Below are positions 3,274 to 38,973 of a stretch of 42,521 nt of DNA, one piece after another. Under the pieces are notes generated by a model. That model was not told the origin of the DNA. It did no database searches and saw only the letters and a program-made list of their open reading frames with translations. Each line of letters starts with the position of its first letter. The first letter of the stretch is position 1. Where the stretch lies: the NCBI GenBank assembly GCA_947630285.1, contig CANRHD010000016.1:1-42521 (forward strand), written 5' to 3'. The translations under genes and the position numbers were made by a program. The DNA comes from an uncultured Clostridia bacterium. Its GTDB lineage: Bacteria; Bacillota; Clostridia; Oscillospirales; Acutalibacteraceae.

Positions 3274-3364
3274 TGGCGCGGAAGGAGAGACTCGAACTCT
3301 CGCGCCGGTTTCCCGACCTACGCCCTTAGCAGGGGCGCCTCGTCACCAACTTGAGTACTTCCGC
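3274..3364 (-). tRNA. tRNA-Ser(GCT)
   Basis: Read on the minus strand, the acceptor stem GCGGAAG pairs with CTTCCGC, followed by discriminator G and an encoded CCA. The anticodon stem CGCCC/GGGCG carries the loop CTGCTAA, giving anticodon GCT for AGC and AGU serine codons. A long variable arm (GTCGGGAAACCGGC region) marks it as a class II tRNA. The T arm reads GAGAGTTCGAGTCTCTC. The length of 91 is normal for tRNA-Ser. Confidence 0.95.
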
Positions 3365-3440
3365 ATTTGGTAACTTGTTTAAAGCTGTTATGTTTTCCAA
3401 CAAAGGCTATACAGCCGCCGCCGTATAGCTTTTGTTGTTC

Positions 3441-3529
3441 TGGCGGAGAGAAAGGGATTCGAACCCTTGTGAGTTTGACCTCAAACGGTTTTCAAGACCG
3501 CCGCGTTATGACCACTTCGCTATCTCTCC
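3441..3529 (-). tRNA. tRNA-Ser(TGA)
   Basis: Read on the minus strand, the acceptor stem GGAGAGA pairs with TCTCTCC, followed by G and an encoded CCA. The anticodon loop CTTGAAA between GCGGT-type and ACCG-type arms gives anticodon TGA for UCA and related serine codons. It has a class II long variable arm and the T arm AAGGGTTCGAATCCCTT. It is the first gene of a two-tRNA unit; the second tRNA starts 76 bases downstream with no promoter in between. Confidence 0.95.
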
Positions 3530-16426: not shown

Positions 16427-18553
16427 ATGTCGAAATTAGTTATAGTTGAGTCGCCGTCAAAGGCGAAGACAATTCAAAAATATCTTGGCCAATCGTACAA
16501 GGTCACCGCCTCCGTGGGGCACATAAGGGACCTGCCGGCGGCTAAGCTGAGCGTTGATGTAAAAAACGATTTTGCCCCTAAGTACGCTATAGTCAAGGGC
16601 AAGGAAAAGCTTGTAAAAGAGCTTAAAGAAATGGTTTCGGACGCAGACTCCGTATATCTTGCAACCGACCCCGACCGTGAGGGCGAGGCTATTTCCTGGC
16701 ACCTTGCAACCGTGCTTGACCTTGATATGAACGAAAAAAACAGGGTAAAGTTTAACGAGATAAACAAGGCGAGCGTTACCAAGGGCATTGAAAATCCCGA
16801 AAAAATCGACCTCGATTTGGTAGACGCCCAGCAGGCAAGGCGCATACTTGACCGCATTGTGGGCTATAAGCTCAGCCCGTTTGTTTCGCAGAAAATCAGG
16901 AGGGGTCTTTCGGCGGGACGGGTTCAGTCCGTGGCGGTAAGGCTTATAGTTGACAGGGAAGAAGAAATCAGAAAATTCAATGCGGAAGAGTATTGGACGA
17001 TAGACGCAAGGTTTGCCGCTCCGTCGTCAAAAAAGGCGTTTTCGGCGTCGCTTACCGCAGATGAAAACGGCAAGGTAAAAATCGAAAACAGGCAACAGGC
17101 CGACAGCTATCTTGCAAGGCTTGAAAATGCGGAATATATCGTAGACTCGGTTAAAAAAGGCACAAGAAAGCGCCAGCCGGCTCCGCCGTTTACGACCTCT
17201 ACCCTCCAACAGGACGCTTCGAGGAAGCTCGGCTTCCAGGGCAAAAAGACAATGAAGCTTGCCCAGGAGCTTTACGAGGGCATGGAAATTAAGGGTATAG
17301 GCACAACGGGTCTTATAACCTATATGAGAACGGACTCGCTTCGCATTTCCGAGCAGGCAAGGCAGGAGGGCAACCAATTTATTTTAAGCGAATACGGCAA
17401 AAGCTATCTGCCCGATAAGCCGAGATATTATAAAACGAAGTCAAACGCCCAGGACGGGCATGAGGCAATAAGGCCGACCGTTCCGTCGCTTTCGCCCGAC
17501 AGGGTAAAGGACAGCCTTACGGCGGATCAGTTTAAGCTGTACTCCCTTATCTGGAAAAGGTTTACCGCAAGCCTTATGTCGGCGTGCGTTCAGGACACGG
17601 TTAAGGTTGAAATAAGTGCGGCACGGGAGGAAGACAGGCAAAAAGGCAGAACGCTTGTTCTTTCGGCTTCGGGCTACAGCGTAAAATTCGACGGCTACAC
17701 CAGACTTTACGAGGTGAGCACCGATGAGGACGAGGACGAGGAGAGCGTTCTTCCGGAAATTCACGAAAACGACAGGCTCAAATTAAAGAGCATAGAGGGC
17801 AATCAGCATTTCACACAGCCGCCGGCAAGATATTCGGAGGCGTCGCTTATCAAAGCGCTTGAGGAAACGGGCGTGGGCAGACCCAGTACCTATGTTTCCA
17901 TAGTTTCCACGATATTGCAGAGGGAATATGTTAAAAGGGAGAAGAAACAGCTTGTTCCGACTGAATTGGGCGAAGCGGTGGTAAACCTTTTAAAACAGCA
18001 GTTCCCGAATATAGTAAATGTAAAGTTTACCGCCAATATGGAGTCGGATCTGGACAAGATAGAGGCCGGCGAGGTTGACTATATAGCAATGCTTCACAAA
18101 TTCTACGACGGCTTTGAGGAAACGCTTGACAAGGCCAAGAAAGAGATGTCGGGGGTTAAAATCCAGCTTCAGGAAGATGTCACCGATATTCCCTGCGAAA
18201 AGTGCGGCAGAATGATGGTAGTCAAGGTCGGCAGGTTCGGAAAATTCCTTGCCTGCCCCGGCTATCCGGAATGTAAAAACACCAAGCCGTTTGTTGTTGA
18301 AACAAACGCAAAATGTCCGGTGTGCGGCGGCAAGGTTATCGAAAAGAAATCCAAAAAAGGCTACGCTTTCTACGGCTGTGACAATTACCCGGACTGCAAC
18401 TTTATGACCTGGGATAAGCCGACGGACGAAATTTGCCCCAAATGCGGAAAATCGCTGTTTAAGCGCAAGGGGGGCCTTTTGGTTTGCCTTGACGAAAAAT
18501 GCGGCTTTGAGAAAAAAGCGGAGAGAAAGAAAAGAGCGAAAAAAGAGGAATAA
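16427..18553 (+). CDS. topA: DNA topoisomerase I
   Basis: This type IA topoisomerase relaxes negative supercoils. The 708-residue protein starts with a TOPRIM domain (MSKLVIVESPSKAKTIQKYL, then YLATDPDREGEAISWHL with the metal-binding Asp pair). The active-site tyrosine is Tyr299 in GLITYMRTDSLRIS. The C-terminus carries tetracysteine zinc ribbons from about residue 590: CEKCGRMM with CPGYPEC, CPVCGGK with CDNYPDC, and CPKCGKS with CLDEKC. I chose ATG 16427, about 10 bases after TAGGAT, over the TTG at 16418. It lies 11 bases after dprA and 2 bases before trmFO. Confidence 0.96.
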   Translation: MSKLVIVESPSKAKTIQKYLGQSYKVTASVGHIRDLPAAKLSVDVKNDFAPKYAIVKGKEKLVKELKEMVSDADSVYLATDPDREGEAISWHLATVLDLDMNEKNRVKFNEINKASVTKGIENPEKIDLDLVDAQQARRILDRIVGYKLSPFVSQKIRRGLSAGRVQSVAVRLIVDREEEIRKFNAEEYWTIDARFAAPSSKKAFSASLTADENGKVKIENRQQADSYLARLENAEYIVDSVKKGTRKRQPAPPFTTSTLQQDASRKLGFQGKKTMKLAQELYEGMEIKGIGTTGLITYMRTDSLRISEQARQEGNQFILSEYGKSYLPDKPRYYKTKSNAQDGHEAIRPTVPSLSPDRVKDSLTADQFKLYSLIWKRFTASLMSACVQDTVKVEISAAREEDRQKGRTLVLSASGYSVKFDGYTRLYEVSTDEDEDEESVLPEIHENDRLKLKSIEGNQHFTQPPARYSEASLIKALEETGVGRPSTYVSIVSTILQREYVKREKKQLVPTELGEAVVNLLKQQFPNIVNVKFTANMESDLDKIEAGEVDYIAMLHKFYDGFEETLDKAKKEMSGVKIQLQEDVTDIPCEKCGRMMVVKVGRFGKFLACPGYPECKNTKPFVVETNAKCPVCGGKVIEKKSKKGYAFYGCDNYPDCNFMTWDKPTDEICPKCGKSLFKRKGGLLVCLDEKCGFEKKAERKKRAKKEE

Positions 18554-25500: not shown

Positions 25501-26088
25501 TACAAAGAGGTGGCCGAAAGGTACGAATTCCTGTCGGGTCAGATAGGCGATGTCGAAAAGTCGAAAAATGAGCTCAACAAGCTGATTTATGACTTAACGG
25601 GAAAAATGGCCTCTCAATTCAGAGAGAGCTTTAATAAAATCAACGCCTGTTTCGGCGAAACCTTCAGGGAGCTGTTCGCAGGCGGCAGAGCCGAGCTCCG
25701 TTTGGAAAACGAGCTTGATATTCTTGAATGTAATATTGAAATCAAGGTTCAGCCCCCGGGCAAGAATGTTAAAAACATAGACTTGCTTTCCGGCGGCGAA
25801 AAGGCAATTTCGGCCATTGCGCTTTTGTTTGCGATTTTAAAGGTAACGCCTGCGCCGTTTTGCATTTTTGACGAGGTTGAGGCCGCGCTTGACGATGTAA
25901 ATGTAGGCCGTTACGCAAGCTATGTCAGAAGAATGACAAAGAATACGCAGTTTATCCTTATCTCGCACAGACGGGGCACCATGGAGGAAGCAGATGTGCT
26001 TTACGGCGTTACGATGCAGGAAAAGGGCGTTTCAAAGCTGCTTGAATTAAAGACGGCGGAAATGGCGCAAAAGCTGGGCTTGGCTTGA
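22519..26088 (+). CDS. smc: Chromosome partition protein SMC
   Basis: SMC is the ATPase of condensin that organises and separates chromosomes. The 1189-residue protein has the whole architecture: Walker A GPNGSGKSN (residues 31-39), a first coiled coil (about 165-500), a hinge (about 515-670, with GPLSQLITVSEKYSTAIE and AGGSMTGGSRT), a second coiled coil (about 680-1015), the ABC signature LLSGGEKAISAIALL (near 1089) and Walker B FCIFDEVEAALDDVNV (near 1115). The length is typical. It follows the radical SAM gene without a gap and precedes ftsY. The kleisin partners ScpA/B are not in the window. Confidence 0.97.
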   Translation: MFLKALEMQGFKSFPDKTVLEFNKGITAVVGPNGSGKSNISDAVRWVLGEQSTKNLRGSKMEDVIFDGTDIRKAKGFAEVTLRLDNTDRALAKDEDEVFVTRRYFRSGESEYLINGESARLRDINELFMDTGLGRDGYSIVGQGKIADMVSSRTGERREMLEEAAGISHFRYRRADAIKRLGQAEENLVRLRDILTELESRIGPLKAQSEKAQKFIVLADEKKQLEIGIWLNTIDKTNERLREQEHKISTAEVNYNRAEEELDEIERKMDEAANGVREINVKIEEIRGKSSVSEEQLSALETQIKVEENSILHNNEAIERLEKDKSFENETKQHLDERIKEARENIENANSKINEIAEETALLAKKEEEFNASNSEFSDRAQLLSSEISALSVELADNRVTSETANSSTREISSRIKSIDETLGGRQEVYNRYKKNREDAENALKSCEAEINSVKNSIDGYTMRFQSRGKKAQECKDRLIEKQREYQNAEDRIKILRELEKNMEGYSGSIKAVMNEVKRGALKGIKGPLSQLITVSEKYSTAIETALGAAVQNIVTESENDAKRAINFLKQSRSGRATFLPVSAIKGKTLAEKGLDDEFGFINIASRLVSCDGRYSEIINSLLGRTVVCDDMDCAVQIAKKYNYRFKIVTLDGQVVNAGGSMTGGSRTQNAGILSRGNEIDKLTKGLDAIGVQIKTLEEDYKQLSEDAARASAELEGAEGDLLRKNEEKIRLEGEFKLADEQLGTLSGTVKELADEKETLEKRIEEINLSAAKAAEETKRLAKLISEKEEELEKITGRREELVSSREELSKKASQLSLEALSLKKDIQTNEDTLRHLNARKEGHTDKESILDEEILKIKEKNSQLEKNIENLRLNVSDLKKASENSRADIDALIKNRDVFEKQQSDMRVLERSKTTEREQLGNELARLEEKKISMRKEYDDLSAKLYEEYQLTRREAAALEIVIDDYHAAGRRLTELKAQIKALGSVNVSAIEEYKEVAERYEFLSGQIGDVEKSKNELNKLIYDLTGKMASQFRESFNKINACFGETFRELFAGGRAELRLENELDILECNIEIKVQPPGKNVKNIDLLSGGEKAISAIALLFAILKVTPAPFCIFDEVEAALDDVNVGRYASYVRRMTKNTQFILISHRRGTMEEADVLYGVTMQEKGVSKLLELKTAEMAQKLGLA

Positions 26089-26122
26089 TTTTTAGAATAC
26101 AGTTTTTTTCGGAGGTTAAGCA

Positions 26123-27478
26123 ATGGGAATTTTCAGTAAAATAAATTTCGGACTTACTAAGACAAGAAATAAGATGTCGGGCGCTATTGACGACCTGTTC
26201 GATAACGCAGAGGAAATCACGGACGATTTGTATGCGGAGCTTGAAGAAATACTCGTTATGGCAGATGTGGGCATGGTTACCGCCGTTGATATAACGGAAA
26301 AGCTTAAAAAGAATGTCGCCGAGAAAAAGCTGAAAAATTCACAGGCCATAAAGCAGGAAATGAAAAATATCGTTGCCGATTTGCTTTACGGCGGCGAGGA
26401 TATGGGGCTTATCACCCAGCCGTCGGTCATACTCGTAATAGGCGTAAACGGCGTGGGCAAAACTACTACCATAGGAAAGCTTGCCGCCATGTATAAGGCG
26501 CAGGGCAAAAAGGTGCTTTTGGGTGCGGCGGATACATTCCGTGCCGCCGCAATAGACCAGCTTCAGATATGGGCGGAGCGTTCGGGCGTTGAAATAGTTA
26601 AGCACGCCGAGGGCGCAGACCCTGCGGCGGTGGTGTTCGACTCGGTAAACGCCGCAAAGGCGAGAAACACGGATATTGTAATTATTGATACGGCAGGCAG
26701 GCTTCACAACAAAAAAAATCTTATGGAGGAGCTTGCAAAGATTTACAGGGTTATTGACAGGGAGCTTCCCTATTCGGACAGGGAAATACTTCTTGTGCTT
26801 GACGCTACCACGGGTCAAAACGCCGTTAATCAGGCAAAGGAGTTTAAAGCAGTCGCCGATATTACGGGCATAGTGCTTACAAAGCTTGACGGCACCGCAA
26901 GGGGCGGAGTTGTGCTCGCCATTAAAAACGAACTTGGCATACCCGTTAAATTTATCGGTGTGGGCGAGCAGATAGATGATTTACAGCCGTTTAAGCCGCA
27001 GGCGTTTGCGGACGGGCTGTTTGAGAAAATTGAGTACGAGGAGGAAGACGAACTTGAAAGCGAAAAAATTACTGAAAACATCTTGGGCGGTGTACGAGGC
27101 GCTGACGATGGACACTCAGACGGCGAAGAACAGGCTCAAGGGCTTCCTTCACGGGAAACTGCACCGCAGGAAAAAGCAGAAGCAGGCGAGAATTTCAACC
27201 CCTCGGCAAATGAAAGCGGAGCTTCTCAATTACAACAGGCAACGCAGATGATAGATGAAATAGTAGGGGATTTGCTCGACGATGTATTGCCCGACAGTGA
27301 GCAGGCGCAAGGCTCGGACGGACAGACCGAAAAACCCGAAGAACCCGAAGACTCCGCCGCAGAGCAGACGGAAAATGCAGAGGAAGCGCAGGAGCCACAG
27401 GGCGAAGAGGCAAAGGAAGATAAGAAAGAGAAAAAGGAAAAGAGGGGATTTTTTGGACTTTTTAATCGCCACTCATAA
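26123..27478 (+). CDS. ftsY: Signal recognition particle receptor FtsY with an unusual C-terminal acidic tail
   Basis: FtsY is the membrane-associated GTPase that receives SRP-ribosome complexes. The N domain (about 1-95) and G domain (to about 300) are complete: GVNGVGKTTTIGKLA, ADTFRAAAIDQL, IIDTAGRLHNKKNLMEEL, TKLDGTARGG and the closing GVGEQIDDLQPFKPQAFADG. Most FtsY proteins end there. This one runs on for about 150 residues of acidic, Gln/Glu/Ala-rich sequence and finishes KKEKKEKRGFFGLFNRHS, a basic stretch plus an aromatic amphipathic end like the N-terminal membrane motif of E. coli FtsY. The acidic region is therefore at the opposite end. Bases 27054-27251 are also open in another frame. 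The last 26 bases overlap rdgB. Confidence 0.93.
   Translation: MGIFSKINFGLTKTRNKMSGAIDDLFDNAEEITDDLYAELEEILVMADVGMVTAVDITEKLKKNVAEKKLKNSQAIKQEMKNIVADLLYGGEDMGLITQPSVILVIGVNGVGKTTTIGKLAAMYKAQGKKVLLGAADTFRAAAIDQLQIWAERSGVEIVKHAEGADPAAVVFDSVNAAKARNTDIVIIDTAGRLHNKKNLMEELAKIYRVIDRELPYSDREILLVLDATTGQNAVNQAKEFKAVADITGIVLTKLDGTARGGVVLAIKNELGIPVKFIGVGEQIDDLQPFKPQAFADGLFEKIEYEEEDELESEKITENILGGVRGADDGHSDGEEQAQGLPSRETAPQEKAEAGENFNPSANESGASQLQQATQMIDEIVGDLLDDVLPDSEQAQGSDGQTEKPEEPEDSAAEQTENAEEAQEPQGEEAKEDKKEKKEKRGFFGLFNRHS
27054..27251 (+). CDS. Possible small basic ORF overlapping the ftsY tail
   Basis: A +1-shifted frame starts at TTG 27054, nine bases after a perfect AGGAGG (27039-27044), and encodes 65 residues, including LKTSWAVYEALTMDTQTAKN and a Lys/Arg-rich second half. 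Its codons (GCG, CTG, CAG, AAG, AGG, TAC) look like those of neighbouring genes, whereas the FtsY frame over the same stretch uses codons rare here (CAA, CGA, ACT). Its TGA overlaps an in-frame FtsY ATG at 27248 (ATGA), the coupling seen elsewhere in this operon. Against it, frame-shifted readings of acidic sequence are often Lys/Arg-rich by chance. I do not recognise the peptide. Confidence 0.25.
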   Translation: MKAKKLLKTSWAVYEALTMDTQTAKNRLKGFLHGKLHRRKKQKQARISTPRQMKAELLNYNRQRR

Positions 27479-33906: not shown

Positions 33907-35217
33907 ATGAAAAATTGCAAGCTGTTAAGCGTGCTTATTGCCGTAATAATGCTGATTTCTTCTTCATCATTGAGCGCATTTGCCATACAGCCCAAGAGCT
34001 TTGTTATACATAACCCGGGCGATAGAACGGGCATATATTTGCTCAATAACGAAATTCGCAAAAACGCCGCCTCGGTTACCCAAAAATTTACAAATGCGTC
34101 ATCTTACAGGCTTTACGACCAGTTAAACGCAACCGAAAAAATAATTTATAACGGCATTGTAAATCAGAAAGCCGGCATAAATACTTCAAACGGAAATTTT
34201 TCCGTTAATATCACAAACGGCGACAGGTTTGACGAAAATGTAGACAAAATGCAGGAGTCATATTTAAGGGTGTTGGCGGCGATTATTGACGATGTTCCGG
34301 AGCTTTATTGGCTGTTGGAGGAGCCTTACGAGGTCGAGGTTAAAGAAATAACCGTAGGCGGAAAACTAAAGATTGACTTTACCTTTGACGCCGTTTATAG
34401 TCATGTCAACAGCTTTGCACAGTTAAAAAAAGAGTACAACGACACTGTCAGCGCCGCTAAGAATTTCCCGGTTGAGGGCGTTACAAGATACGAAAAGGTA
34501 AAAAGCATAGCGGACGGAATTTGCGATATGGCGTCGTATGCCGAGGTAATATATGAAGGAGAGACTCTGTATTTTTACCCGTCGGGCTGTCTGCTCGCTC
34601 CGCATGAAACCGTTTGCGACGGCTATTCAAAGGCATTTAAAATGATTTGCGATTTTAACAATATACCTTCGATAATAGTGGTTGGCAAAGCGTACACATA
34701 CGACTATGACGGCAATTTCACAGAGGGCGATCACGCATGGAATTATGTTCAGATGGACGACGGCAAATGGTACGCCGTTGACACCACATGGATGGACGAC
34801 AACCCCATTGAGTCGGAGTTTTTCCTTGTCGGCGCCAATACCGAGGACTCGTTCCTTGACTCGTTCTCAAAAACCCATGTTGCGGACGGATGCAGATTTT
34901 ATCTTGAAGACACGCATACGGGAGAAATAGAGCTTATATCCTTTAATTATCCTCGGTTAAACGACGGAGCCTATGTTCCGAAGTCGGTTATTAAGACCCT
35001 GCTTTACGGCGATGTAAACGGCGACCAAAAGGTAACTATTTCGGACGCCAAACTGGTATTGATGCACATTGTCGGACGAAGCTTCACCGAAAATCAAAAG
35101 AAGCTTGCAGATGTCAACAAAAGCAATAATATTTCCATTACCGACGCAAAATGGATATTGCAGAATGTCGCTAAGCTAAGGGAATTGGGCACCGTAACCC
35201 AAACCGTTTTACAGTAA
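33907..35217 (+). CDS. Secreted transglutaminase-like protein with a type I dockerin
   Basis: The 436-residue protein has a signal sequence (LLSVLIAVIMLISSSSLSAF, cut near AFA), a helical N-terminal part, a transglutaminase-like core and a dockerin. The putative triad is Cys237 in ETVCDGYSKAF, His276 in GDHAWNYVQM and Asp292 in WYAVDTTWMDD. The C-terminus (about 367-425) has two dockerin repeats: GDVNGDQKVTISDAKLVLMH and ADVNKSNNISITDAKWILQN, with the Asp/Asn calcium ligands. Type I dockerins bind cohesins of cellulosome-like scaffolds or cell-surface proteins. Whether the core cuts, cross-links or only binds peptides is open. GGAGG precedes the ATG. Confidence 0.88.
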   Translation: MKNCKLLSVLIAVIMLISSSSLSAFAIQPKSFVIHNPGDRTGIYLLNNEIRKNAASVTQKFTNASSYRLYDQLNATEKIIYNGIVNQKAGINTSNGNFSVNITNGDRFDENVDKMQESYLRVLAAIIDDVPELYWLLEEPYEVEVKEITVGGKLKIDFTFDAVYSHVNSFAQLKKEYNDTVSAAKNFPVEGVTRYEKVKSIADGICDMASYAEVIYEGETLYFYPSGCLLAPHETVCDGYSKAFKMICDFNNIPSIIVVGKAYTYDYDGNFTEGDHAWNYVQMDDGKWYAVDTTWMDDNPIESEFFLVGANTEDSFLDSFSKTHVADGCRFYLEDTHTGEIELISFNYPRLNDGAYVPKSVIKTLLYGDVNGDQKVTISDAKLVLMHIVGRSFTENQKKLADVNKSNNISITDAKWILQNVAKLRELGTVTQTVLQ

Positions 35218-35248
35218 TGTGACGGCAGTTTGGATCGAAAAATAAGTA

Positions 35249-35286
35249 AAAAAACGCTATGCTGTGAAAACAACATAGCGTTTTTT
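35249..35286. terminator. Bidirectional terminator between the dockerin gene and the phage-derived cassette
   Basis: AAAAAACGCTATG (35249-35261) pairs perfectly with CATAGCGTTTTTT (35274-35286), with the stem extended by TGT/ACA. A and T runs on both sides allow use in both directions; it lies 35 bases from the holin stop. Confidence 0.88.
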
Positions 35287-35320: not shown

Positions 35321-35575
35321 TTATTCCTCCTTGGTAAGCTGTTTTTTGATCTGATTGCCGTAGACGGCGGTGCCTGATATGAGCACGCCCTGAATTGCGG
35401 AGTTTACGCTAAAGCCCAAAAGCGCAAAACAGCCTGCAATTCCGAAAACCAAAATAATCAGCGGAATATATTTATCGGGTATCTTTTCGGTGCGTTTTAT
35501 TATCATTCCGATAATATTGAGAGCCGGTATTAAAATAAGCGCATTGCTTACCAGATAATCCATTATATTTTCCAT
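35321..35575 (-). CDS. Phage holin (Firmicutes small holin family)
   Basis: The 84-residue protein has two hydrophobic segments (about 10-27 and 36-65) with a short charged turn, RTEKIPDKYIPLIILVF, between, then FSVNSAIQGVLISGTAVYGN and a charged tail (QIKKQLTKEE). This is the pattern of holins that sit beside lysins in Firmicutes phages. Holins open the membrane so that the lysin reaches the wall. Its ATG shares one base with the stop of the lysozyme gene, so the two are made together. It is the last gene of the cassette. Confidence 0.85.
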   Translation of the reverse strand: MENIMDYLVSNALILIPALNIIGMIIKRTEKIPDKYIPLIILVFGIAGCFALLGFSVNSAIQGVLISGTAVYGNQIKKQLTKEE

Positions 35576-36471
35576 CAGTTCACCTGCTTTATGTCGGCTT
35601 TTCTTATATAGCCGGTCACCTTTTCGTCTATGGGCTTGGCGTTTACATATTCGGGCTTTGTGGTAATTCTGTATCGGGAACGGATTTCCACACCGTCGTA
35701 AATATAAAATATTCCCGTCTTTTTGCCTGCCTGCTTATTGGTTGTTGACGAGGCGTATATGGGCGCATTGTCAAGCCTGATTTTTGTGCCTGCCTTATAG
35801 GAGGGCTTAGGCACAGCAGGCTTTGGCGCCGGAGTTACTGGCTTTGCGGTTTCGCCGCTCTTATAGCCGTTGAAGCCGCCCTTTACAATTATCGCCGGGT
35901 AATCCTTGTACGAGGTATCGAGGTCAACGCTTGTGCCGATACCCTTTACCTTGCCCGTTGCGGAGTACTGCCACATTCCGTAACTGCCCTTGTATGTGTT
36001 TTTCTTTGCCCATTGTGCCACCCAGCAGGCGTATTTCTTTTTACATTCGTCGTCGATGTAATTGTCAAACCAGTTTTTGTTTGCATACACCCCGACAAAG
36101 TAGCCTGCCTTTTCCATTTCGGTGCAAAAGGTTTTTATAATTTGCGACACAAAGGCTTTTCCCTTTTGCGCCTGGTTATTTTCCTCAACATCATAATACA
36201 CGGGCATATCGAACTGTTTTCCCTTAATCCATTTAAGGAAAATTTGCGCCTCTTTTTTGGCGTCGTCGGTTGATTTTGCGTAGGAATAAAGATATGCGCC
36301 GAGCTTTAAACCGACATTTTTGGCGGCGGTATAATATTCCTCAAATCTCTCGTCCTTCTGATTATCGTAATGGCCGTAGCCGGCACGGATAATGGCAAAA
36401 TCTATGCCGCTGTTTTTGACCTCTTTCCAGTTGATTGAGCCGTTGTATTTTGATACATCAATCCCGTTCAT
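35575..36471 (-). CDS. GH25 lysozyme (phage endolysin) with SH3-like wall-binding domain
   Basis: The 298-residue protein begins with a GH25 muramidase domain (1-195): NGIDVSKYNGSINW with the conserved Asp, the catalytic pair in PVYYDVEENN, and the closing WQYSATGKVKGIGTSVDLD. A Pro/Lys/Ala linker (about 205-230) leads to a C-terminal SH3-like domain that probably binds peptidoglycan. No signal peptide is present, as expected for a lysin released through a holin. It overlaps both neighbours, the XhlA-like gene by four bases and the holin by one. Confidence 0.92.
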   Translation of the reverse strand: MNGIDVSKYNGSINWKEVKNSGIDFAIIRAGYGHYDNQKDERFEEYYTAAKNVGLKLGAYLYSYAKSTDDAKKEAQIFLKWIKGKQFDMPVYYDVEENNQAQKGKAFVSQIIKTFCTEMEKAGYFVGVYANKNWFDNYIDDECKKKYACWVAQWAKKNTYKGSYGMWQYSATGKVKGIGTSVDLDTSYKDYPAIIVKGGFNGYKSGETAKPVTPAPKPAVPKPSYKAGTKIRLDNAPIYASSTTNKQAGKKTGIFYIYDGVEIRSRYRITTKPEYVNAKPIDEKVTGYIRKADIKQVN

Positions 36472-36692
36472 ATTGTTTCATTCCTTTCCAAATTATCTAT
36501 TCTTGTTTCCTGCGCCCTTACCTTTTCTTCTATAACGGGGATACGCTCGGCGAAGCTGTTGTGCTTGTCAACCTTTTTTTCGAGCAGCTCAAGCCTGTAG
36601 TTTGTCAGCTTTGCGCTTGTGAGTATGCCTCCCGAAGTCCCGATAAGAGTGCCTAAAAAGGATAACAGAGCGATAATTGATTCGCTGTTCAT
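36468..36692 (-). CDS. XhlA-like phage lysis-associated membrane protein
   Basis: The 74-residue protein has one N-terminal hydrophobic segment (SIIALLSFLGTLIGTSGGIL), followed by KLTNYRLELLEKKVDKHN and a coiled coil to the end. This is the layout of XhlA-type proteins found just before lysin and holin genes in Bacillus PBSX-like and related phages, thought to help lysis at the membrane. It overlaps the lysin start by ATGA. Confidence 0.75.
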   Translation of the reverse strand: MNSESIIALLSFLGTLIGTSGGILTSAKLTNYRLELLEKKVDKHNSFAERIPVIEEKVRAQETRIDNLERNETI

Positions 36693-36765
36693 TAAATATC
36701 ACCTGTTAATTCATTATATTGCGGTGCGCCGCTATAATTTACAAACTCTTTTTGCGGCCGTTTTA

Positions 36766-38004
36766 TTACTCGCTTTCCAAAACGCTTTGTGCGGCAGAGC
36801 GCACCTGTTCGAGCGTTGTCGCCTTTGACAGTCCGTCGGCAAGAGCTTTAACCGTTTCCAAGACTCTGTAAACGGCGTCCGAAGAAATGGGCATGGCGTT
36901 GCCCTCTTCGGCCTTGTCCGCTATGCCGAGCCTCTCGTTCGGAATAATTCCGTTGCGGTCCAAAAGCAAATAATTGCGTACCTGAAAAGAATAGGCCGTC
37001 TCGTTTGTACCGCCGCCTAACTGAATAGCTCCTACCTGCAAAGCTTTCGCATGGTCACCGATGGCTACGGCGTTCTGACCCTTGGTGGTCGCCGAAAATC
37101 CTATGGCGGTGCTTACATTTGAAGCGGAGCTGTCCCTGCCTATGGCAATGGAAACCGCCACTTTTGCGCTTGCGTTAAGACCCAGGACCGTTTTTGATTT
37201 ATCTGCCTTTCCGTCTTGAAGCTCCGTTATTGCTGTATCGACCTCGTTAAATTTTTGGTAAACGGCTTTGTTTTGAACCGGGTTTTCGCTCAAATCCGAA
37301 AGCTCCCCGTCAACCTTTGTGTTGTTGGCGTTATCCTCAATCATCTCAAGCTTGTTTTTCAATAAATCCGTAAAGTCGTTTGACGAAAGCTCTTTTCCCT
37401 CGGCCTTGTCAACCTTTGAATTAAGGGCGTTTGTCACAAGCATGTTTTGTACGGCGTTTTGGCTCGTTTGGCTCAGAGAGCCGTCGATAACCGCATCTTT
37501 GCCGGGGTCACCTTTTTCGCCCTTGTCGCCCTTTACGCCCTGCGGCCCTCTGTCGCCCTTGTCGCCTTTAAAATCTCCGTTTTTAATCGCTTCAAGCAGG
37601 GCGTTTACCGAAAAATCATAGCTTTCGGCAAGCTCTTTTGAGTCCCCCTCGACGCAGGCAAAGTTGAGCTTAACCACTACGGGCTTTATGACAAGCTCGG
37701 TATCGTATGTTTCGGCGTTGATTTTTATAATGTTAAGACAGCACAGCACGCTCATCTGCCCCGTTATTGCGGCAGGCAGGGAATAAGAAATTGTTCCGTC
37801 GGAATCGGGCGTAAGGTAATCCGTTCTCATAGGGCCGGAAACGGTCGCAAATTCAAGATAATATTTATACGAGCTGTTTATAAGCTGTGAAGAAAGCTTG
37901 AAATTTATTTTTGTTGCGTTATGCTCAAGCATAAGCCCGGCGTCATAGACTTCCTCGGAATTGCTATTTTCAGCGGGATCGACATTTATCTGTATTTCTT
38001 TCAA
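36766..38004 (-). CDS. Phage tail fibre/baseplate receptor-binding protein with collagen-like repeat
   Basis: The 412-residue protein has a BppU-like N-terminal domain (about 1-125), a collagen-like Gly-X-Y stretch (147-169, with GDKGDRGPQGVKGDKGEKGD), two related repeats ending SKVD and NEVD (about 177-199 and 234-256, each with NxVQN), and a YadA-head-like repeat region (about 283-330, AIGRDSS, AIGFSAT, AIGDHAK), then a helical C-terminus. Collagen-like and AIG repeats both point to a trimeric fibre. Such proteins recognise the cell surface in phages and tailocins. No other tail genes are present. The last part is a spacer to XhlA. Confidence 0.8.
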   Translation of the reverse strand: MKEIQINVDPAENSNSEEVYDAGLMLEHNATKINFKLSSQLINSSYKYYLEFATVSGPMRTDYLTPDSDGTISYSLPAAITGQMSVLCCLNIIKINAETYDTELVIKPVVVKLNFACVEGDSKELAESYDFSVNALLEAIKNGDFKGDKGDRGPQGVKGDKGEKGDPGKDAVIDGSLSQTSQNAVQNMLVTNALNSKVDKAEGKELSSNDFTDLLKNKLEMIEDNANNTKVDGELSDLSENPVQNKAVYQKFNEVDTAITELQDGKADKSKTVLGLNASAKVAVSIAIGRDSSASNVSTAIGFSATTKGQNAVAIGDHAKALQVGAIQLGGGTNETAYSFQVRNYLLLDRNGIIPNERLGIADKAEEGNAMPISSDAVYRVLETVKALADGLSKATTLEQVRSAAQSVLESE

Positions 38005-38402
38005 AATAAATTCCTCCTTTTAATGTTTGAAATAATTTCTTCAAAATTTTCAGGAGGATTTATAAGCGTGAAACCGCAGCAATACACATATTTAAGGCAG
38101 TTATACAGCTTGTCCGAGGCCCTTTGCAGGCTTCTGTAAACGGATTGGCGGCTGACGCCGTATTTCTTTGAGATTTGAGAGACATTCATCAGGTTAAAAA
38201 ATTTGTCCGAGATGTAATCTTGCTCCGTTTTGTTAAGCTCTTTCTCTATTGCCAGGCGTACAATCCGCTCGCAGTTGTCGTTTTTTGTGTTTATGATATA
38301 AGAGGGAAGCTCCTTTGCCTGCGCCGCCGACATAAACTCGAATTTTTGCGTCAAAAACAAATATTCGCCGAGACTCAGCTCTATAGGTTCTTTCTTTTTC
38401 AT
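38001..38402 (-). CDS. Sigma-70 region 4-like phage regulator
   Basis: The 133-residue protein starts at ATG 38400-38402, six bases after GGAGG. The C-terminal half has a helix-turn-helix of the sigma region 4 type: NVSQISKKYGVSRQSVYRSL, followed by QRASDKLYNCLKYVYC. The N-terminal half is a helical region with LSLGEYLFLTQKFEFMSAAQ. It resembles small sigma-like regulators of late phage genes but lacks sigma region 2, so it is more likely a DNA-binding activator. It is the first gene of the cassette and overlaps the tail-fibre start by ATGA. It may control its own operon. Confidence 0.65.
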   Translation of the reverse strand: MKKKEPIELSLGEYLFLTQKFEFMSAAQAKELPSYIINTKNDNCERIVRLAIEKELNKTEQDYISDKFFNLMNVSQISKKYGVSRQSVYRSLQRASDKLYNCLKYVYCCGFTLINPPENFEEIISNIKRRNLF

Positions 38403-38430
38403 ACAATCCTCCGAAAACAGTATAAATTGA

Positions 38431-38468
38431 AACAACACCCAAGAAACCGAGGCTTCAGAGGTGTTGTT
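38431..38468 (-). promoter_or_regulatory. Leader hairpin of the phage-derived cassette
   Basis: AACAACACC (38431-38439) pairs with GGTGTTGTT (38460-38468); an inner GAA/TTC pair extends the structure. On the minus strand it falls between the promoter and the regulator gene, and is followed by TCAATTTATACTG rather than a T run, so it is more likely a regulatory or stabilising leader than a classical terminator. On the plus strand it is followed by a T-rich run, where it might stop antisense transcription. Confidence 0.5.
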
Positions 38469-38493
38469 TATTTTTTATTCACTCGCAATTATA

Positions 38494-38522
38494 ATTTTAG
38501 ACGAAAAATTGTTACTTGTCAA
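38494..38522 (-). promoter_or_regulatory. SigA-type promoter of the phage-derived cassette
   Basis: On the minus strand TTGACA (38517-38522) and TAAAAT (38494-38499) are spaced by exactly 17 bases. This is a vegetative-type promoter, about 95 bases before the regulator's ATG. Confidence 0.75.
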
Positions 38523-38631
38523 CACAAAATGCGGAGAATGATAAATCAGTACGCTTTTTATGAAATAAAACAGCAAGCGACAAATTTTTTGTATGGCATA
38601 ATATAAAATCAAACTGAAAGGAATGAGAAAA

Positions 38632-38973
38632 ATGCAAACGAAAATCGAAATAAACGGCAGTACCGTTACCGCATATCTTTCGGGGGAAATAGACCATCAC
38701 AGCGCCGCCTCGATAAGACAGGCCATTGACGAGAGCATAATAAGCAGGAAACCGCAGAGGCTTATAATTGATTTTAAAGATGTAAGCTTTATGGACTCCT
38801 CGGGCATAGGTCTTGTAATGGGCAGATACAGGCTTTTGGAAAACACGGGCTGTAAAATGGCGATAGTAAACCTTTCGCCGCACGCATACAGGGTTATGCA
38901 GCTTGCAGGTATGGAGAAGCTTGCGGTTTTAAAAAAGAAAGCCAAGGAGGTAACAAATAATGAAAGCGCTTAA
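38632..38973 (+). CDS. spoIIAA: Anti-sigma F factor antagonist SpoIIAA
   Basis: SpoIIAA frees sigma F from SpoIIAB in the forespore once dephosphorylated by SpoIIE. The 113-residue STAS protein shows the phosphorylation site MDSSGIGLVMGRY and the N-terminal AYLSGEIDHHSA typical of SpoIIAA. I choose ATG 38632, nine bases after AAAGGA, not the ATG at 38623 that touches it. It overlaps spoIIAB by 14 bases. The divergent gap to the phage cassette is only about 230 bases. Confidence 0.95.
   Translation: MQTKIEINGSTVTAYLSGEIDHHSAASIRQAIDESIISRKPQRLIIDFKDVSFMDSSGIGLVMGRYRLLENTGCKMAIVNLSPHAYRVMQLAGMEKLAVLKKKAKEVTNNESA

Follow-up and report, generated by a model that had tools for sequence, protein, structure and literature searches.

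The cassette and its signals

The window analysed here is a 42,521-nt stretch of DNA comprising an entire contig (C16) of the genome of an uncultured Clostridia bacterium of the family Acutalibacteraceae (genome G000; 2.03 Mb, 33 contigs). On its minus strand, between positions 35321 and 38402, the window carries a cassette of five genes encoding a regulator, a fibre and a phage-type lysis module. The regulator (38001-38402, minus strand) is an intact open reading frame (ORF) of 133 aa with a single domain resembling region 4 of sigma-70, including the helix-turn-helix (HTH) of that region (Sigma70_r4, Pfam 7e-4, under the curated cut-off). It is followed on the same strand by a trimeric-fibre-like protein of 412 aa with a TTG start (36766-38004; YadA_head 3.7e-5 and Collagen 1.3e-3, both under the Pfam curated cut-offs), which is laid out as a conserved N-terminal domain, a collagen-like stretch, YadA-head-like repeats and a variable tip. 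The remaining minus-strand genes encode an XhlA-like protein of 74 aa with a coil and a membrane helix (36468-36692; Pfam XhlA 2e-3, under the curated cut-off; phrog_1863 1.7e-13), a GH25 lysozyme (endolysin) of 298 aa with a conserved C-terminal domain (35575-36471; PF01183 2.3e-35; phrog_291 endolysin 5e-52), and a holin of 84 aa of the Phage_holin_5_2 (Hol44) family (35321-35575; Pfam 2.8e-19; phrog_1129 6e-26).

Three of the four gene junctions overlap, by 4, 4 and 1 nt, and the fibre and XhlA-like genes are separated by 73 nt. An earlier interpretation made from the letters alone, the sequence-only reading, had described five overlapping genes with tight junctions; the five intact minus-strand frames and three of the overlaps stand, and the 73-nt gap does not fit. 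Its description of a stand-alone phage-derived lysis and fibre module with its own sigma-like regulator was borne out by the region 4-like domain and the Pfam and PHROG matches. The cassette proteins showed no toxin domain in the Pfam and PHROG scans. The possibility that the regulator is a complete sigma factor of the TcdR, BotR or UviA type was rejected, as Pfam gave region 4 and other HTH models only, with no region 2, for a protein of 133 aa. The regulator is probably a late-gene activator.

A sigma-A-like promoter was read from the sequence at 38494-38522 on the minus strand, with TTGACA at 38522-38517 and TAAAAT at 38499-38494 separated by 17 nt. At the other end, a terminator-like hairpin with T/A tracts, also read from the sequence, lies in the gap between the cassette and a convergent dockerin gene (35248-35286). 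The clean promoter and terminator noted previously were therefore both seen, and one element can be added between the promoter and the regulator start, an attenuator-like leader hairpin followed by a T-rich tract (38431-38468, minus strand; -18.1 kcal/mol). No Rfam family was matched in 38000-38700, the leader included.

Conservation of the cassette across the genus

The regulator gave one match each in 38/39 genus genomes, the single miss being G028, which is 85% complete. Profiles of the cassette proteins were built from the surroundings in 37 other genus genomes and run on these and the window (38 loci). The regulator and GH25 were present in all 38 cassettes, as was an XhlA-like protein, which occurred in two types (the window's type in 9/38 and a second type, c5, in 29/38). 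A Hol44-type holin was found in 36/38, the remaining two cassettes having another holin-like protein, and a further coil protein, c7, was present in 16/38. The fibre N-domain was detected in 28/38. In the 12 fibres that were read, this domain was kept and the tips diverged strongly among genomes. One 718-aa fibre (L106:6298-8451) had, by eye, an SGNH-hydrolase-looking tip, as opposed to the YadA-head tip in the window.

The ratio of nonsynonymous to synonymous substitution (dN/dS) was calculated by the Nei-Gojobori method for one genome pair, G000 and its nearest relative, G035. The values were 0.083 for the regulator, 0.176 for the fibre, 0.082 for the XhlA-like protein, 0.099 for GH25 and 0.053 for the holin, close to those of the neighbouring spoIIAA (0.139), spoIIAB (0.070) and sigF (0.098); the ratios are rough because dS was 0.7-1.5 in the cassette and spoIIA genes. 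The cassette is real, intact and under purifying selection. The proposal that selection had kept these genes agrees with their presence in 38/39 relatives with one interrupted GH25, and with the dN/dS check that had been suggested (0.05-0.18, against 0.07-0.14 for the neighbours); frequent absence or decay among relatives was not seen. A decaying prophage remnant retained by chance is consequently very improbable. The phage ancestry of the genes, the interrupted GH25 in G021 and the capsid pieces in G020 (both described below) would be expected of such a remnant, while the 38/39 conservation, the lysis-side genes in 38/38 cassettes, the dN/dS of 0.03-0.18 and the same flanks within subclades all argue against it.

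The flanks of the cassette are chromosomal, as had been claimed. A Pfam scan of 30 further window proteins gave chromosomal types (infC, rplT, dprA, topA, trmFO, plsX, rnc, smc, ftsY, leuS and others); at E 1e-5 neither a phage structural family nor an integrase family matched, and 5/30 proteins gave no family. The cassette as part of an ordinary prophage was rejected, since the other scanned window proteins are chromosomal and no tail, integration or replication genes stand beside the lysis genes. No Pfam family for integrase or replication genes was present in the scanned window proteins; the flanks of the head locus described below and those of the relatives were judged by eye only.

In the window, spoIIAA, spoIIAB and sigF are divergent from the cassette, and this placement had led to the suggestion of a device for sporulation or mother-cell lysis coupled to spoIIA. 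The cassette adjoins spoIIA in only 2/38 genomes (the window's and G035, where it is head-to-head with spoIIAA), and the sporulation link was therefore rejected. The contigs of three others (G011, G015 and G019) stop about 350 nt or less upstream of the cassette, leaving the neighbour out of view. Elsewhere the neighbours, named by eye, were clpC/mcsB, rimP-nusA-infB, glg genes and others; members of a subclade shared their flanks. Taken with the sigma-A-like promoter and the LexA core in 31/38 genomes (see below), a sporulation device is the least credible of the explanations considered.

In 12 genomes (L048, L051, L052, L057-L059, L064, L066-L068, L072 and L073; clusters c34 and c28), a gene for a secreted protein precedes the cassette on its own strand. 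By eye, these proteins carry an NTGD- or DTS-type C-terminal anchor, and most of these cassettes are nusA/infB-flanked.

Control of the cassette

The motif GAACN4GTTC, which we take to be the LexA core of Gram-positive bacteria, was found at most 220 nt upstream of the regulator in 31/38 genomes; 100 shuffles averaged 1.1 and never exceeded 4. In most relatives the box lies at the -10 box or just after it; the window copy is only degenerate. For C. difficile, the corresponding reference is PMC4234289. The 10-mer AACAAATGTT or its complement was present upstream of the cassette in 29/38 genomes, and AACAAATGTT was present upstream of lexA in all 14 genomes tested, the window's included. In most promoters of the window's clade, an AACAA stretch lies between the -35 and -10 boxes, the position of a perfect box in the related G023. 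From these motifs, SOS control is well supported for the genus; it is not supported for the window itself because the core is absent in its clade.

In other genera, LexA cores were found at 6/18 loci, so the SOS link is patchy outside the genus. By eye, and with no shuffle test, AAACAAATGTTT was seen upstream of the small terminase gene (TerS) in two Ruminococcus genomes. Downstream of the regulator and c7, where the lysin is encoded, three loci of other genera (L188, L195 and L187) hold an NlpC/P60-like, amidase-like or GH25 enzyme (by eye except for GH25); the enzyme has thus been swapped within a constant frame.

A terminator-like hairpin between promoter and start codon was present in 38/38 regulator leaders, whereas shuffling, repeated eight times, gave 2-15. 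Paired positions differ between genomes in both arms of the stem (core-motif alignment, 32/38), a result that leans towards structure because the pairs were chosen by folding. The hairpin may act as an attenuator that blocks leaky transcription into the lethal genes.

A head operon elsewhere in the genome

Because the gene transfer agent (GTA)-like system FpGTA of Faecalibacterium is encoded in two loci, one for the head and one for fibre and lysis (PMC12946183), head genes were searched for in the genus. Terminase_3 matches were obtained in 35/39 genus genomes, mostly one weak match each, with strong prophage-type ones in a few; the single Faecalibacterium genome that was added also matched. 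In G000, a free-standing head operon was identified on contig C9 at about 42.1-48.1 kb (L210), in the order TerS, large terminase subunit (TerL), portal, g5, capsid and three small ORFs. The assignments were TerS, PF03592 9.4e-9; TerL, PF03237 7.7e-13 and phrog_2 3e-46; portal, phrog_30703 8e-120; g5, phrog_16951 4e-97 (unknown function); and capsid, PF25209 1.7e-16 and phrog_3922 5e-104. Genes resembling glgB and glgC follow the operon.

The absence of integrase, capsid, portal, terminase and other tail genes stated in the sequence-only reading thus holds for the window, and capsid, portal and terminase are at G000:C9. The idea of a fibre and lysis set with no particle has to be given up, as head and packaging genes form a conserved operon on another contig of this genome. 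The search for structural genes that had been proposed yielded a head operon and no tape measure, the tape-measure family of ordinary prophages being present in 5/39 genus genomes and not in G000. With the head genes kept and this distribution of the tape measure, the cassette does not look like the remnant end of a tailocin.

The TerL cluster was present in 18/20 fetched loci, with the same neighbour order where contig and ORF picking allowed. The exceptions were L216, which has TerS and capsid with the middle miscalled by the simple ORF picker, and L228, the Faecalibacterium locus, which does not have the cluster. The capsid profile matched 36/39 genus genomes, mostly at a single place, with two places in G007 (a contig-end split) and two in G037; the misses were G005 (81% complete), G009 (96%) and G029 (68%). 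Regulator and capsid co-occurred in 35/39 genus genomes. In the window genome, cassette and head operon are on different contigs (C16 and C9). In G022 both loci are on one contig, with the capsid at 16546-17547, the regulator at 25765-26127 and glg genes between them.

The Walker A, Walker B and acidic nuclease motifs of TerL were kept in 13/13 aligned sequences. The dN/dS of the head genes was 0.026-0.143 for the same genome pair, so that structural and lysis genes at both loci show purifying selection (0.026-0.176). Pairwise distances correlated with those of LexA at r 0.59-0.63 for TerL, portal and capsid (10-11 genomes), 0.62 for the regulator, 0.59 for GH25 and 0.37 for the holin, and head and cassette gene distances correlated with each other at r 0.34-0.69. 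These correlations are consistent with shared vertical descent and are no proof of a functional tie between the loci. The head and packaging genes are conserved, intact and chromosomal, with G005, G009, G029 and G020 as exceptions, and their inheritance over many species is vertical and single-copy, as judged by counts and distance correlation rather than by a species tree. The cassette provides the predicted lysis system for release.

Relatives of the head genes beyond the genus

The TerL profile matched 126/200 genomes of the family, in 86/135 genera and mostly at E <1e-140. The capsid profile matched 43/295 genomes of the order in six families, with one match each. At family level, co-occurrence of the regulator was blurred by unspecific HTH matches. 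When the capsid profile was run on nine named or titled genomes, three did not match (Bittarella, Ruminiclostridium papyrosolvens and Clostridium oryzae); the named carriers include R. callidus ATCC 27760, R. albus KH2T6 and C. methylpentosum DSM 5476, and the R. callidus capsid is 38% identical. A stretch of about 9.5 kb in each of R. albus KH2T6 and Ruminococcus RUI259 carries, on a single strand, the head genes together with a hub-like gene and GH25; TerL of RUI259 is 59% identical. The hub-like protein matched the phrog_177 baseplate hub weakly (1.6e-4) and in the C. methylpentosum member only.

Among IMG/VR viral contigs, 341 carried a capsid relative, and 80 of these were kept (L273-L352). 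Several of the 80 are free-standing loci of about 11-17 kb. One (L347) encodes a sheath (PF17482 3e-7), Baseplate_J (4.7e-42) and Gp48 (2.6e-13), and another (L313) a sheath initiator (5e-7) and Baseplate_J (5e-48), with no sheath seen. Named cultured phages matched the capsid only at <29% identity, and five closer records were unannotated faecal contigs; TerL has cultured-phage relatives at about 49%.

The cassette on phages, plasmids and other records

Spread of the cassette by phage or plasmid was considered and rejected, as no carrier was confirmed in viral contigs, a phage collection or plasmids beyond weak or partial matches. None of 86 pattern matches in the viral contigs, made with patterns from the window's clade only, was confirmed as a relative of the regulator. 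The regulator had matches in two records of the phage collection, one aligning over 92% and the second over a stretch of 61 residues, and the plasmids gave one weak match. In the longer of these phage-collection matches, MT835647.1 (L185, 'UNVERIFIED: Bacteriophage sp.'), the cassette is followed by host-type genes for an AMP-dependent ligase, an AraC regulator and cell-wall glycosyltransferases, and the record therefore appears to be a piece of chromosome. The cassette is a probable cause of false viral calls.

Among the best 80 loci of a GH25 scan of genome contigs, 12 had the regulator, all of them apparently from this genus. A further locus, L107, has the fibre, XhlA-like, GH25 and holin genes on a 3-kb contig, the regulator end being cut away. 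In a prophage of G227, a homologue of the regulator was seen by eye one gene upstream of the terminase genes.

Comparison with known systems

The head genes of PBSX are ordered xtmA-xtmB-xkdE-F-G-H-I-J within one contiguous element with a full contractile tail. This order resembles TerS-TerL-portal-g5-capsid-three small ORFs, a likeness of order and not of sequence homology, and the capsid relative with sheath and baseplate (L347) offers a further parallel. Unlike the contiguous PBSX, the genus has two loci, a GH25 lysin and no tail that was found; a PBSX-like contiguous element was rejected because the head operon in G000 is followed by the glgB-like gene and the cassette is on another contig. 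Like the cassette, PBSX has a lysis set of XhlA, holin and lysin, which in PBSX is under RecA control (PMC5589764), and PBSX is described as packing host DNA yet acting as a tailocin (PMC12946183). Expression of its xhlAB-xlyA genes alone makes membrane vesicles in B. subtilis (PMC5589764).

A close parallel in organization is FpGTA, described in 2026 and counted as only the second GTA-like system known in Gram-positive bacteria (PMC12946183). Its locus I holds the head genes (TerS, TerL, portal, scaffold and capsid) and its locus II tail fibre and receptor-binding genes, holin, endolysin and a listed baseplate gene (PMC12946183). Like FpGTA, on whose particles no tails were identifiable, the present system has two unlinked loci for head and for fibre and lysis and is genus-wide in gut Clostridia; unlike it, the cassette has a regulator and mostly a LexA box and has no baseplate gene of the kind listed for locus II. 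The TerL of the genus head operon was found in 1/31 genomes of Faecalibacterium, the genus of F. gallinarum, and the capsid in 0 of the 1 F. gallinarum genome tested, which indicates a lineage distinct from FpGTA. Membership of the same family was rejected on TerL, with no FpGTA sequence compared.

RcGTA of Rhodobacter capsulatus also encodes head spikes, tail fibres, holin and endolysin apart from the main capsid cluster (PMC6209664, PMC7296036). The separation of the capsid cluster from fibre and lysis genes is thus shared, whereas RcGTA is tailed and alphaproteobacterial; the likeness is one of description, not of sequence.

Other features of the window

The convergent neighbour of the cassette (33907-35217) encodes a protein with dockerin and transglutaminase domains and adjoins a carboxylesterase-like gene. 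Parts of a cellulosome type may exist in the genus. An AbiH-family abortive-infection protein (1961-2821; Pfam 9.4e-44) is encoded near a pair of tRNA-Ser genes (3274-3529).

Interpretation

We read the cassette as the release and adhesion arm of a chromosomally inherited GTA-like particle whose head and release loci are split, and give this a probability of about 0.62. The main argument is the head operon in the same genome and its conservation. The DNA itself shows that both loci exist, conserved and intact, that relatives have LexA boxes, that the hairpins are there, and that head genes and GH25 share a strand block in Ruminococcus; what these features would amount to in the cell is a prediction. 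The particle is called GTA-like, and the label 'GTA' is reserved for a demonstration of packaging and transfer.

The proposed sequence of events would begin with DNA damage or stress freeing the promoter, through the LexA box found in most relatives and presumed for the window's clade. The leader hairpin would hold leaky transcription back from the lethal genes. The sigma-region-4-like regulator, made first, would then turn on the unlinked head operon in the manner of a phage late activator, and the capsids would load pieces of the host chromosome. Holin, XhlA-like protein and GH25 lysozyme would burst the producer cell, and the fibre would sit on the particle, its variable tip choosing the recipient.

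A number of observations weigh against this interpretation. Particle, packaging and transfer are unproven in the genus, which is known from draft genomes alone. The cassette itself is not uniform, with 10/38 having no fibre N-domain and the GH25 frame of G021 interrupted (L045, about 9.7-10.6 kb; longest open piece 176 codons, compared with at least 278 elsewhere). At the head locus, G020 (99% complete) has the capsid only as two 58-residue pieces (C15 and C29), and may have an interrupted or decayed gene, and G009 (L053; 96% complete) has the cassette with neither TerL nor capsid matched, possibly a natural loss of the head locus. As to control, the seven genomes of the window's clade (G000, G007, G008, G010, G022, G029 and G035) do not have the LexA core. 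The strict GAACN4GTTC core was present in 0/14 lexA promoters, and agreement with the LexA site of this genus is thus by way of the 10-mer. The regions upstream of TerS in 17 genomes contained neither the core nor the 10-mer, which leaves co-regulation of the two loci as something that we infer, and the same hairpin scan was positive in 8/17 TerS leaders. The cassette profiles matched 0 of the 80 contigs kept from the 341 capsid-bearing viral ones; head and lysis genes are therefore usually apart there, or of other types.

Some of these observations would suit a stand-alone domesticated device, in which stress-triggered lysis releases proteins, DNA or vesicles and the head operon is functionally separate. 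The two loci lie on different contigs in the window genome, G009 has a cassette and no detectable head operon, the LexA cores precede the cassette and not TerS, the cassette profiles are missing from those 80 viral contigs, and the PBSX lysis genes yield vesicles by themselves (PMC5589764). Such a device would, however, have no role for the fibre of 28/38 cassettes in plain lysis, and it leaves aside the joint presence of regulator and capsid in 35/39 genomes, the single strand block of head genes and GH25 in two Ruminococcus genomes, and the regulator homologue near the phage terminase in G227. We regard it as unlikely.

The tail raises a different question. No tail was found with the head operon in the genus using tape-measure and hub profiles, sheath and baseplate J not having been searched; the hub profile, run with no positive control, matched none of the 31 genomes scanned (26 from the genus, out of its 39, plus 5 more). 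The genus head operon ends before tail genes and the hub profile gave 0/31, which suggests that the tail was lost in steps or is carried by a third locus, the carriers being compared here with no tree. A PBSX-like killer or dead-end particle, releasing heads with host DNA that kill relatives or deliver nothing, would agree with the missing tail and hub genes (given the uncontrolled hub profile), with the tailocin behaviour described for the DNA-packing PBSX (PMC12946183), and with the sheath and baseplate (L347) or baseplate (L313) kept by relatives with the same capsid. Killing of this kind nevertheless requires a tail, which seems to be lacking in the genus, and the scans of the cassette gave no toxin domain. 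This explanation is about as improbable as the stand-alone device.

A bolder version of the GTA-like particle is a vertically inherited, tail-less GTA lineage in six families of this order of gut Clostridia, with a terminase unrelated to that of FpGTA and its tail shed stepwise from contractile tail to baseplate only, hub only and none, which would also be the source of the 4.6-kb particles of R. callidus. Virus-like particles of that species are reported with 4.6-kb chromosomal pieces (PMC12946183), and the presence of the capsid in R. callidus counts for the GTA-like interpretation; that the link goes through a species name and a 38%-identical capsid counts against it. Under this tentative extension, which we hold to be doubtful, the genus would keep only a head filled with DNA, a fibre that selects the recipient and a lysis operon of SOS type, amounting to a stress-triggered donation of DNA.

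A literature search by titles and abstract openings returned no paper describing this locus. Virome catalogues count such loci as viruses, as in the 341 contigs with a capsid relative and the chromosomal-looking cassette contig filed as a phage. If the GTA-like interpretation is true, built-in DNA-donating particles would be common in gut Clostridia, across six families of the order and in most sampled genomes of one family, and the locus would provide identified genes to account for the chromosomal DNA of the R. callidus particles. The cassette may then be part of a hidden gene-swapping system in the gut.

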